Below, piece after piece: positions 9,496 through 12,660 of a DNA stretch of 31,614 nt (position 1 is its first letter; every line of letters begins with the position of its first letter). Position numbers and translations under genes: made by a program. The DNA comes from a virus, in the IMG/VR virus record IMGVR_UViG_3300042465_004654, positions 1-31,614 of that record; one strand, 5' to 3'. The notes under the pieces are model-generated. The model was given only the letters and a program-made list of their open reading frames with translations, ran no database searches and was not told the origin of the DNA.

Positions 9496-9667
9496 GACTT
9501 GTCGATTCGCGCTGCTTCTGGTAGGCAAGAGCGGGGCGCCGTAGAGCCCCGGCTGTCCTCCTGTCCCCGCGCGACTCAGCCCGCGCACCCCGTCCGTCGG
9601 CCCGGAGTAGCTACCGGGACCCGGCGGGCGGTTGGGCAGGGGAGGCCATCTCTCGACAGGAGAAGAC
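9494..9667 (+). promoter_or_regulatory. Leader of replication operon, with dyad at 9601-9618
   Basis: No gene is seen here. A TTGACT (9494-9499) could be a -35, but the expected -10 (TCTGGT at 17 bp) is poor. At 9601-9618 there is a loop-free dyad, CCCGG-A-GTAG/CTACCGGG (8 bp with one bulged A), that could be an operator. The start codon at 9668 has a clear AGGAG site. The placement after a terminator argues that a promoter for the replication genes lies here, possibly needing an activator. Confidence 0.35.
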
Positions 9668-10702
9668 ATGACCGACGATGAAGCCCCGAACAGGGGCCGT
9701 TCGCGCACATCTGCGCGTCAGACGGCCGCGCCAACTGGCGAAGGCTGGGACCCGATTGAACGATGCGACTGGGAAGCGGTTGCGTCGGCACTGATGAAGC
9801 CGTGGCCCTTAGGCGCGCAACGACATGACCTGCGGTACTGGGCAAGCCGTCAACGAGCCCACAAGGGCGACAGACCCGGCTACCGCCTGCTTGCGGAGCG
9901 TTGGGGCATCACCGAGAAGGCGGCCCGCATCGTCTGCAGCGACGTTGAATGGTGGGCTGATCCGCGCTTCGGCGACCCCGATCCTAAAAGGGCGCAGCAA
10001 GGGCGCACCGAGGGCGCAGCAAGGGCGCAGCAAGGGCGCACCGAGGGCGCACCTGTACCCGTGGATGACGACGTTCTCAACGTAAAAGGGCGCACCGAGG
10101 GCGCAGCAAGGGCGCACGAAGGGCGCACCGAGGGCGCAGCAAGGGCCCCTAAAGATAACAGCAACAGCAACACCAACAGCCACACCGACATCGAACAGAT
10201 CTTGTCGGCTACGCCGACGCAAGAGCGTCCGAAGCCGGAGAAGGTCAAGCGGACAGCAGAAGCAGCGCAGCTGTTGGCGCTGCTTGATGCGCTGCGTCTG
10301 ATGCGGCATCGAGGCCGCAAGCTATCGGAGGGCACCTGGGTCCCGAAGCTCGAGAAGGCCTTGGCGAAGCGGAGCGCGCAGAGCATCGTCGACGGGTACG
10401 TCTGGATGCTCCGAAGTCCGCAGGCCGCCTTCTTGCGGGGCGAGGATGGGAGAGGCACGACCGACTACACGGTCGACTTCTCGACTTGCCTTGCGCATCC
10501 CGAGTACGCCGATCGCCGTCGCTGGAAGGGCAGTGAAGGCCCGTTGCAGCCTGAGCTCGATCGGTGGGAGGCTGCCTTAGCAGCTGGCGAGCCAGAACCG
10601 GCATGGGTGGAGCGATGGGCGGCCGTCGATGCGTTCGCAGCCGATCGCGCTCGAGCACGGATGCAACCGATGGAGGATGGCGACTATGACGAGATCTTCT
10701 AA
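9668..10702 (+). CDS. Replication initiator (lambda O-like) carrying internal iterons
   Basis: A 344-aa protein. Residues 26-97 form a winged-helix-like domain (WPLGAQRHDLRYWASRQ, GYRLLAERWGITEKAARIVCSDVEWW). Residues 108-129 and 140-161 are repeats of RAQQGRTEGAA type, encoded by 11-bp DNA repeats. These are followed by a polar Asn/Ser/Thr linker (KDNSNSNTNSHTD) and a C-terminal domain of about 130 residues (ALLDALRLMRHRGRKLSEGTWVPKLEKAL...). The layout of N-terminal DNA-binding domain, origin DNA read as a linker, and C-terminal interaction domain parallels lambda O, whose gene also contains the origin. The likely partner is the host or co-encoded helicase loader. The ATG at 9668 is chosen for its AGGAG site; the 9632 ATG lacks one. 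Assignment as initiator is inferred, not from a named domain. Confidence 0.65.
   Translation: MTDDEAPNRGRSRTSARQTAAPTGEGWDPIERCDWEAVASALMKPWPLGAQRHDLRYWASRQRAHKGDRPGYRLLAERWGITEKAARIVCSDVEWWADPRFGDPDPKRAQQGRTEGAARAQQGRTEGAPVPVDDDVLNVKGRTEGAARAHEGRTEGAARAPKDNSNSNTNSHTDIEQILSATPTQERPKPEKVKRTAEAAQLLALLDALRLMRHRGRKLSEGTWVPKLEKALAKRSAQSIVDGYVWMLRSPQAAFLRGEDGRGTTDYTVDFSTCLAHPEYADRRRWKGSEGPLQPELDRWEAALAAGEPEPAWVERWAAVDAFAADRARARMQPMEDGDYDEIF
9989..10152. repeat. 11-bp iteron array, candidate replication origin
   Basis: The unit is AGGGCGCANNN. Cluster 1 has six units starting at 9989, 10000, 10011, 10022, 10033 and 10044. Cluster 2 has five at 10087, 10098, 10109, 10120 and 10131, plus a degenerate one at 10142. 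Both clusters begin TAAAAGGGCGCA and are separated by 32 bp. Spacing is exactly 11 bp, so the codon phase shifts from unit to unit, which argues for selection on DNA rather than protein. The DNA after the array (10150-10200) is A-rich and less GC-rich, as expected for an unwinding element. Confidence 0.75.
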
Positions 10703-11255
10703 AAGTATGATCGCGTATCTGCGCGACAACCTCGGCAAGCTGGCAGAGCGGCACAACAGCACAGCACCGGACGATGAACGCAACATCAGCCCGCACGACA
10801 TCGACGAAGCCGTCAACGTGTGGCTTGAGATGCGTGCGCTCAACGACAAGGCCGCGCGCGACACGTTGCTCAAGACGCTGGAAGGAAGCGAGTGGGTCAA
10901 GCCAGGCGCGATTCGCAGCGCTGTCTCGAGGCGCATCCTTGGGCCACGGGCGACGAAGGCCGTCGGTGAAGTCTGGGTTCGCTGGAATCAGCTCGAGGCC
11001 GGATCGTGGACCGTGAAGCCGGACGTCGAAGCTGCAGCCAAGCTGCGCAGCGAGCTCGAGCATCGTCGCGCTGCAGCGCTGCGTGAAGGCGACCCCGAAG
11101 ACCTGGTCAAGTGGGCCAAGACCGAAGTGCCTTGGCTTGGTCGCTTGCTCGGTGATGAGCCAGAGCCGCCGCTACCCGACAAGAAGCGGCACTACTGCGC
11201 TGCTCCCAACGAGATTGCAGCGGCGGTCGCAAAAAGAATCATCCGGGCCGGTTGA
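10686..11255 (+). CDS. Replication-operon protein, unknown (helicase-loader position)
   Basis: A 189-aa, Arg/Ala-rich helical protein that overlaps the initiator gene by 17 bases; GGAGG lies 9 bases before the ATG at 10686. It begins MTRSSKSMIAYLRDNLGKLAERHN and contains SPHDIDEAVNVWLEMRAL and WVKPGAIRSAVSRRILG. The C-terminus has VPWLGRLLGDEPEPPLPDKKRHYC. In lambda-like arrangements the gene after the initiator supplies helicase loading, but I see no Walker A motif, so this could only be a non-ATPase loader or primosome adaptor. The family is not recognised. Confidence 0.6.
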   Translation: MTRSSKSMIAYLRDNLGKLAERHNSTAPDDERNISPHDIDEAVNVWLEMRALNDKAARDTLLKTLEGSEWVKPGAIRSAVSRRILGPRATKAVGEVWVRWNQLEAGSWTVKPDVEAAAKLRSELEHRRAAALREGDPEDLVKWAKTEVPWLGRLLGDEPEPPLPDKKRHYCAAPNEIAAAVAKRIIRAG

Positions 11256-11322: not shown

Positions 11323-11643
11323 ATGACTGACACCGCAAAGGCCGCACGCGGCATCATCGTGATCATCGCAGCCGCGCTGTGCATCGCTGTCGACAAGGTC
11401 GAAGCGCACATCGACGAGCTCACAAGGCGAGACCTGGAGCAGGCAGACTACGAGTTCAGGCGCTCCGGAGCCATTCAAAAGGCAGAGGCCGCCGTGTTGT
11501 GGCAGATGCAGCTCGAGGGCCGGTGCGCGCCTTCGATCGTCGCTGCATCTGCGATTCCTTGCACGAAGCAGGTCAAGCCTGTTGTTCGGCCCGAAGAGCA
11601 CGTGTGGACTGTAGGGCCGGCGGTCAAGCGAGGTGCGCGATGA
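11323..11643 (+). CDS. Small single-span membrane protein
   Basis: A 106-aa protein with a hydrophobic segment at residues 8-22 (GIIVIIAAALCIAV) that looks like an N-terminal anchor. A charged helix follows (DKVEAHIDELTRRDLEQADYEFRR), then a less ordered C-terminus with two cysteines. AGGAGC stands 5 bases before the ATG. The gene lies immediately behind operator cluster O2 and is coupled by ATGA to the winged-helix gene. Such operator-controlled membrane proteins in phages sometimes alter the host envelope or exclude other phages, but there is no direct evidence for that here. The family is not recognised. Confidence 0.55.
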   Translation: MTDTAKAARGIIVIIAAALCIAVDKVEAHIDELTRRDLEQADYEFRRSGAIQKAEAAVLWQMQLEGRCAPSIVAASAIPCTKQVKPVVRPEEHVWTVGPAVKRGAR

Positions 11644-12095
11644 ATGGCCGTGTCCATCTTGATCGTGTCGCTGAACTCCGTGGCATCTGGGGCCGCAATG
11701 GCCTAAGCATCACAGAGCGCGCGGTTTTAGGTTGTCTGCTCGTTCAGTCCTGTGACGATAAGCCTGCAAAACGCACTCGAAGCTGTTGTAGCTATAGGCA
11801 GATAGCAGCGCTCACTGGACGCTGTGAACGTTCAGTAGGCAGAGCGCATCGCAGCTTGCGAGCTCAAGGTGTGCTTGTCGATGTGCGCCAACGTGGTGTG
11901 AACGAAGTGAATCCTGGTGCGTATGAAGTTGGCTTCGACCTATCGCGCATCCCTTCCGCTCATCAGCGCGCTGATCGGGCAGCCATACATGAACGCGCGG
12001 CGATTGTCGCTTGGCTGCAGGCCATCGAGGACGATGGGCGAGGCAGCACGTGGCAGTGGGCGGACGCCATCGCGCGGGGCGAGCACGTGAAGTAG
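11640..12095 (+). CDS. Winged-helix DNA-binding protein with ERGEH-type tail
   Basis: A 151-aa protein. Residues 20-85 read as a winged helix: LSITERAVLGCLLVQS, then SYRQIAALTGRCERSVGRAHRSLRAQGVLVDV, in which the second block is a clear helix-turn-helix with wing. The C-terminal 34 residues (HERAAIVAWLQAI... WADAIARGEHVK) match the tail of the small zinc protein at 4151-4399. The start at 11640 overlaps the previous stop (ATGA). A/T-ending codons are common, unlike the structural genes. A role as transcriptional regulator or replication accessory is likely; late-gene activation would fit its place just before the late unit, but this is inference. Confidence 0.6.
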   Translation: MNGRVHLDRVAELRGIWGRNGLSITERAVLGCLLVQSCDDKPAKRTRSCCSYRQIAALTGRCERSVGRAHRSLRAQGVLVDVRQRGVNEVNPGAYEVGFDLSRIPSAHQRADRAAIHERAAIVAWLQAIEDDGRGSTWQWADAIARGEHVK

Positions 12096-12201: not shown

Positions 12202-12660
12202 ATGAGCATCAAGAGACCCGTGATTAGGCTGCCTGACGGCAAAGAGCCGCAGTGCTGGGACGAGCTGACGGACACACAGAAGCGCGTCGTGTCGTGGATG
12301 GTCGACAACGAAAAGGACCATCGGGCCGTCATCGCAGAGAGGGTGACGAACGGTGTCGCCGTCTATCAGCGTTGGGGCGTGGACAACCTCTACAAGTGGG
12401 CGGACTGGTACAAGGCAACCAAGCCGCCACCGCCCCCCGACCCGGTCGCGCTCATCGAGGCCGCGCTGCCTGTGCTCACCGAGCGCGCGCTGCAGTTGCT
12501 CCGAGAGACGCTCGAGGCCGGTGAGGGCAACGCGACAGCGGTGCGGGCGGCACAATGGACGCTCGACAAAGCCTACGAGTTCGCGAAGGCGCAGCCGAAG
12601 ACCGAGGGCACGAAGCAGGCGATGGCCGAGCTTGAGGCTGTGCTCCGTGTGGTGAGCTGA
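12202..12660 (+). CDS. Terminase small subunit
   Basis: A 152-aa protein directly upstream of, and coupled (TGATG) to, the large terminase. It is helical throughout: ELTDTQKRVVSWMVDNEKDHRAV, then VYQRWGVDNLYKWADWYK, a poly-Pro hinge PPPPPD, and an amphipathic C-terminal half (LIEAALPVLTERALQLLRETL). This fits the DNA-recognition and oligomerisation domains of small terminases, which form rings that select viral DNA for packaging. I prefer the ATG at 12202 (AGGA 8 bases upstream) to the ATGs at 12160/12166. Identification rests on position, size and fold-like composition. Confidence 0.7.
   Translation: MSIKRPVIRLPDGKEPQCWDELTDTQKRVVSWMVDNEKDHRAVIAERVTNGVAVYQRWGVDNLYKWADWYKATKPPPPPDPVALIEAALPVLTERALQLLRETLEAGEGNATAVRAAQWTLDKAYEFAKAQPKTEGTKQAMAELEAVLRVVS

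Follow-up and report, generated by a model that had tools for sequence, protein, structure and literature searches.

The window analysed in this study, a 31,614-nucleotide stretch covering a 31.6-kb and possibly incomplete phage contig (IMG/VR record IMGVR_UViG_3300042465_004654), carries a candidate replication initiator gene of 344 amino acids with a dense array of short repeats inside its coding sequence. The repeat-bearing gene is divergent, standing between a recombination-type, minus-strand group on its left (exonuclease VIII-like, Holliday-junction resolvase-like and ERF annealing genes) and a terminase/portal group on its right (a TerS-like gene, terL and portal). Two relatives were used for comparison: contig IMGVR_UViG_3300033076_001090 (L037), which has the same core word, and contig IMGVR_UViG_3300000231_000003 (L129), brought in by a scan with the ERF protein, which has an initiator homolog at the same place. 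The features of the locus are as follows.

9549..10155, plus strand: exchanged cassette, comprising the leader, the predicted DNA-binding domain and the iterons
9668..10702, plus strand: candidate replication initiator gene (344 aa), with a predicted N-terminal DNA-binding domain, a repeat-encoded linker and a C-terminal domain
9740..9988, plus strand: N-terminal domain, residues 25-107, with a predicted helix-turn-helix (HTH) at PGYRLLAERWGITEKAARIVC
9989..10054, plus strand: iteron cluster 1, six AGGGCGCA units with a 3-bp spacer after each
10055..10086, plus strand: gap between the clusters (step of 43 bp in the window and L037, 44 bp or 4 x 11 in L129)
10087..10141, plus strand: iteron cluster 2, five AGGGCGCA units with their spacers
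10142..10149, plus strand: degenerate twelfth, terminal unit AGGGCCCC
10150..10199, plus strand: A-rich tract with 6-bp periodicity (AACAGC...), a candidate unwinding element
10200..10702, plus strand: C-terminal domain, which evolves apart from the N-terminal/iteron cassette
10629..11255, plus strand: next gene, up to 208 aa with its real start perhaps at 10687, overlapping the end of the initiator gene

A first reading made from the letters of the window (the sequence-only reading) had described 11 perfect units and one degenerate unit in two 11-bp-phased clusters within the gene, and our count agrees exactly. The word AGGGCGCA occurs 11 times in the window, only on the plus strand and always within 9989-10138, against a chance expectation of 2.5 per window for both strands. 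Units start at 9989, 10000, 10011, 10022, 10033 and 10044 in the first cluster and at 10087, 10098, 10109, 10120 and 10131 in the second, giving a step of exactly 11 bp within each cluster and 43 bp from one cluster to the other, while the terminal degenerate unit, of the form (A/G)GGGCCCC, is retained across all three relatives. As had also been read, the units occupy all three codon phases, so that the encoded peptide has an 11-residue period; synonymous re-drawing of that peptide yielded a maximum of 4 units in 20,000 trials. The array is not an assembly artefact, because two further assemblies carry it, one identical (L009) and one at 95.7% DNA identity (L010). The contigs of two close relatives start just 3′ of the array, at window positions 10215 (L011) and 10339 (L012); these starts look like assembly breakage at the repeats, and such arrays may often fall at contig ends.

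A turn of B-DNA takes about 10.5 bp, slightly less than the step of the array, and a gentle superhelix is therefore expected, with sites that are not exactly on one face. Of the earlier proposal that the units lie on one face of the helix, the 11-bp step thus stands and the strictly single face does not, the drift amounting by arithmetic to ~17 degrees per site. Dyad symmetry within the units (match 0.36-0.55) is no better than in shuffled units.

The less GC-rich, A-rich stretch reported to follow the array is present: 10148-10187 holds 18 A and 2 T in 40 bases and has 50% GC, compared with 62-75% before it. The most A-rich 48 bp of the whole gene start 2 bp after the array in the window and 4 bp after it in L037. 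A 6-bp lag of 0.56-0.64 recurs in the tract of all three relatives, and this rhythm persists though the encoded residues shift from NSNSNT to DRDRDT. Its AT excess is modest (A 0.47, T low); by composition, the tract beside the array would qualify as an unwinding element.

Comparison of the window with L037 separates selection on DNA from selection on the peptide. None of the 88 core bases has changed, against 13 of 33 spacer bases (Fisher 6e-9); third positions are likewise unchanged in the cores (0 of 30) and changed at 48 of 107 in the N-terminal part of the gene (p 4e-7), and for four-fold sites in otherwise equal codons the counts are 0 of 19 and 22 of 48 (p 1e-4). Because the cores are frozen while the spacers and the four-fold sites of the same gene change, selection acts on the DNA, which is what the sequence-only reading had argued in preference to selection on the protein. 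The selected entity is an 8-bp DNA word, whatever its codon phase, and, being read in all three frames, the copies of this word dictate which amino acids the gene encodes there. Homogenisation could copy a core within one phage; alone it would not hold the word across two lineages with diverged spacers.

In L129 the word itself is different. Its array has 13 RGGGCAG units at exact 11-bp steps, arranged in clusters of seven and six that lie 44 bp apart, and terminates in GGGGCCCC, after which the same A-rich tract follows; the two clusters and the terminal degenerate unit are retained despite the changed core. At the peptide level the L129 array is only 42% identical to that of the window, and its units are read in another codon phase. 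Peptide and word have both changed, and the 11-bp DNA period has stayed. The converse, a peptide that is kept while the DNA period is lost, had been put forward as the observation that would count against an iteron array; it was not seen in the relatives, which show the opposite.

L037 is a natural recombinant, with a window-type N-terminal domain and repeats in a gene that is otherwise of the L129 type. In the three-way alignment its affinity is to L129 before ~9550, to the window over 9568-10152 and again to L129 from 10156, which places the breakpoints between 9549 and 9568, ~100-120 bp 5′ of the ATG, and between 10152 and 10156, at the border of the array and the A-rich tract. A two-breakpoint fit to 625 informative sites finds 118 of 164 sites window-like inside the exchanged piece and 69 of 461 outside it, a gain of 89 log-likelihood units that none of 60 shuffles reached. 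Among coding sites of L037, 45 are window-like and 27 L129-like in the N-terminal part, against 28 and 125 in the C-terminal part (p 1e-10). The N-terminal part of L037 is 83% identical to that of the window, with which it shares the word; the 75 bp 3′ of the array are 97% identical in DNA between L037 and L129, and amino acid identity over the C-terminal domain is 82% for this pair versus 50% between the window and L037.

Since L037 is window-like inside the breakpoints and L129-like outside them, the N-terminal half and the repeats move as one cassette, and the exchanged piece looks like a specificity module made of a reader and its sites. One N-terminal stretch, SRQRAHKGDRPGYR, is identical in both AGGGCGCA phages and reads ARERRRSCNRPSYR in the RGGGCAG phage, and is a candidate specificity determinant. 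Co-transfer in L037, together with co-divergence in L129, supports the view that the N-terminal domain reads the repeats lying next to its own coding segment; as only three independent lineages are known, the case for co-inheritance comes from one recombinant. The comparison of relatives proposed in the sequence-only reading accordingly came out as that reading anticipated, with the 11-bp period kept (L129) and the units changing together with the N-terminal domain (L037). A natural recombinant can in this way assign the specificity module of a protein that no database recognises.

The initiator gene product had no match in family searches against Pfam, PHROGs, NCBIfam and PDB sequences, and no homolog among phages and plasmids (INPHARED/PLSDB) was returned by tblastn. 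Structure prediction gave an all-helical N-terminal domain with two helices in HTH spacing, at a pLDDT of only 53, and Foldseek with the two low-confidence models (pLDDT 46 and 53) found no fold match. An hhalign comparison of this domain with the HTH of O-like proteins covered 18 columns (E 0.0066 for a single comparison, probability 6%) and serves as a lead only. Searching 398 Pseudomonadota genomes with an N-terminal domain HMM produced chance matches only, the best readable of which was apparently an Ada/MGMT-like protein. The C-terminal domain, which we took to resemble the C-terminus of YdaU/DUF1376-type proteins, received no support for this likeness from hhalign against the O-like panel, an indirect test. 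The next gene keeps its position in L037 and L129 and has no family match in Pfam, PHROGs or NCBIfam; that it encodes a helicase loader would be a guess only. In L129, the gene after the initiator homolog contains a 27-bp direct repeat (38/40 match; reverse complement, ~2796-2860) encoding RRVWAPPPP.

The phage has no recognisable helicase or primase of its own, and domain searches of the records for the window, L037 and L129 found neither VapE nor DnaB. In phages related by TerL (63-77% identity), the slot upstream of the terminase genes is taken up by a VapE-like primase/helicase or by other genes of replication, and we therefore assign this slot to replication. GC skew gave no clear origin signal and is uninformative here because gene orientation reverses at this point. 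A second small HTH gene, without repeats, lies at 11641-12095 between the initiator gene and terS; it is HTH_36-like (E 0.015) and has a weak phrog_391 match over open-frame residues 104-175.

Phased repeats within a gene that are selected as DNA are one mark of an intragenic iteron origin, and the array is under DNA-level selection with a conserved period, two-cluster layout and flanking A-rich tract, and is co-inherited with the N-terminal domain. The best explanation, which we regard as probable, is an intragenic, lambda-O-like phage replication origin with its own initiator; both the comparison of relatives and the constraint on the DNA favour the likely origin named in the sequence-only reading, with binding and replication as the steps we infer. 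The N-terminal domain of the protein encoded at 9668-10702 would bind the 8-bp sites within the gene itself, 11 perfect ones and one degenerate, and one protomer per 11 bp would build an ordered nucleoprotein array. Strain from this array may open the A-rich tract immediately 3′ of it (10150-10199), after which the C-terminal domain could recruit the host replicative helicase, perhaps aided by the protein of the following gene, and replication would start. Most metagenomic phage origins are unknown, and this candidate is placed to ~200 bp from sequence alone.

Among other readings, the main rival is a centromere-like site, at which an adaptor protein coats the 11-bp repeats, as ParR does on R1 parC, and segregates or anchors the phage genome. 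We retain it because the superhelix expected here resembles that of ParR on R1 parC (PMC9426499), and the formats are close: ten direct repeats flanking a promoter are bound by ParR as 11-bp units in R1, a Clostridium perfringens parC has 8-bp repeats with 3 bp between them, that is, the same 8+3 arrangement (PMC9426499), and the 11-bp direct repeats of the window likewise form two clusters and lack dyad symmetry. R1 parC, as outlined in PMC9426499 and its reference list, comprises two groups of direct repeats, about ten in all and 11 bp each; they surround a promoter in an intergenic position and have ParM as partner, whereas the array in the window is inside a gene, adjoins an A-rich tract and occupies what is the replication slot in relatives. 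A ParA-type ATPase (AAA_31) was found in none of the three records, which may be incomplete, in a search with 14 working controls, and a search for ParM that had no positive control gave no match; we consider a centromere improbable. Also improbable, and ranked below it, is a regulatory operator or decoy, in which the N-terminal domain would bind the repeats for autoregulation or self-titration without origin function. The cassette does include the ~100-120 bp upstream leader, and a promoter region that co-evolves with the domain may lie there; however, 11-13 sites placed 320-500 bp 3′ of the start codon, with a conserved A-rich tract, exceed the needs of an operator, and the phage showed no second recognisable replication initiator.

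A neutral minisatellite, an 11-bp tandem repeat expanded by chance in a linker-encoding region, would find a parallel in bacteria, where AGGGCGCANNN arrays of at least three units occur in 14 stretches of unrelated genomes, mostly intergenic, with more than 20 units in a Methylovulum example. The divergence pattern (no change in 88 core bases, 13 changes in 33 spacer bases) led us to reject this reading, since spacers change and cores do not, and the layout is retained where the core has changed; moreover, two-unit matches in 398 random Pseudomonadota genomes were at the level of the reversed control, except in the genome chosen for having an array. We hold it to be very improbable. The least probable of the four is a packaging (pac) site, suggested by the position of the initiator gene ~2 kb upstream of terL. 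Against it, a separate TerS-like gene (12203-12660, called by position and by-eye likeness to an L046 gene) lies directly 5′ of terL, and TerL relatives at 63-77% identity with the upstream region covered have no such array.

The bacterial AGGGCGCANNN arrays share the core and the 11-bp step in about ten unrelated genomes, mostly outside recognisable genes (L018, L022, L024 and L029 from Methylovulum; L017, L019, L020, L021, L023, L025-L028 and L030). Those of Methylovulum psychrotolerans recur with similar flanks, like a dispersed element. These arrays could be coincidental minisatellites or ectopic iterons.

The intragenic origin that we favour follows a design known from lambda, where iterons and an AT-rich tract lie in the middle of gene O (PMC7466680, PMC3349717, PMC5043065), extra iterons in lambda and Stx lambdoid phages simply add residues to the O protein (PMC7466680), and O bound to the iterons opens the adjoining AT-rich region (PMC5043065). 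Like ori-lambda, the window has repeated sites in a gene, here predicted initiator sites, with an A/T-rich tract directly after them. Lambda has four iterons of 18-19 bp, near-perfect inverted repeats bound by O dimers, and an AT-rich tract of 38-40 bp (PMC3349717, PMC5043065), whereas the arrays of the window and L129 consist of 11-13 non-palindromic 8-bp sites at 11-bp steps in two clusters, and the initiator protein has no detectable relation to O. Neither Pfam, PHROGs and NCBIfam nor hhalign against the O-like panel (probability 6%, 18 columns) gave O-type family homology. The initiator would thus work like O on ori-lambda and cannot be filed in the O family, as homology and dyad-symmetric iterons were not found; array and gene follow a known design whose parameters are unusual here, namely short non-palindromic sites, one per turn, in 11-13 copies.

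Plasmid iterons are longer and lie outside the initiator coding sequence. In P1, RK2 and pSC101, helically phased direct repeats beside an A+T-rich region are bound by initiator monomers (PMC5043065), and the window resembles them in its direct repeats, about helix-phased and adjoining an A-rich tract; unlike them, it has no Rep-family domain in the gene, and a search for a DnaA box found none. We put forward, tentatively and with more doubt than confidence, that an initiator family unrelated to O convergently placed the origin in its own gene, and that its protomers line the DNA as an unbroken filament, one per 11 bp (as ParR coats parC), instead of binding as separate dimers to long palindromic iterons, with leader, DNA-binding domain and iterons as a swappable specificity cassette. 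The locus offers a searchable signature, a non-triplet DNA period in an early gene with frozen cores, variable spacers and a 3′ A-rich tract, and a search for it in other phages would find initiators missed by homology.

An unrelated panel of 30 prophage genes matching phrog_391 (replication initiation O-like) from Pseudomonadota genomes shows a similar order of parts. Half of them (15 of 30) have an intragenic tandem array unmatched by 300 codon shuffles, mostly at residues 100-150, right after the wHTH, and A content is raised after the arrays (p 0.011, n=14), AT content not significantly. Like the window gene, these wHTH proteins thus combine an intragenic array, often an A-enriched stretch after it, and a C-terminal domain; their arrays differ in having few copies and periods mostly of 17-24 bp, an 11-bp linker array occurring in L105 only. 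That array (L105:1760-1830, CCAAATCNGCN) is unrelated in sequence to that of the window and constitutes an independent 11-bp case. Just after the iterons, many of the O-like prophage genes (L098, L100, L102, L105, L106, L120 and others) have stretches of the NEPS/EPSVEPSMNP type (GAACCATCA repeats), which look like short-period A-rich tracts dictating the peptide.
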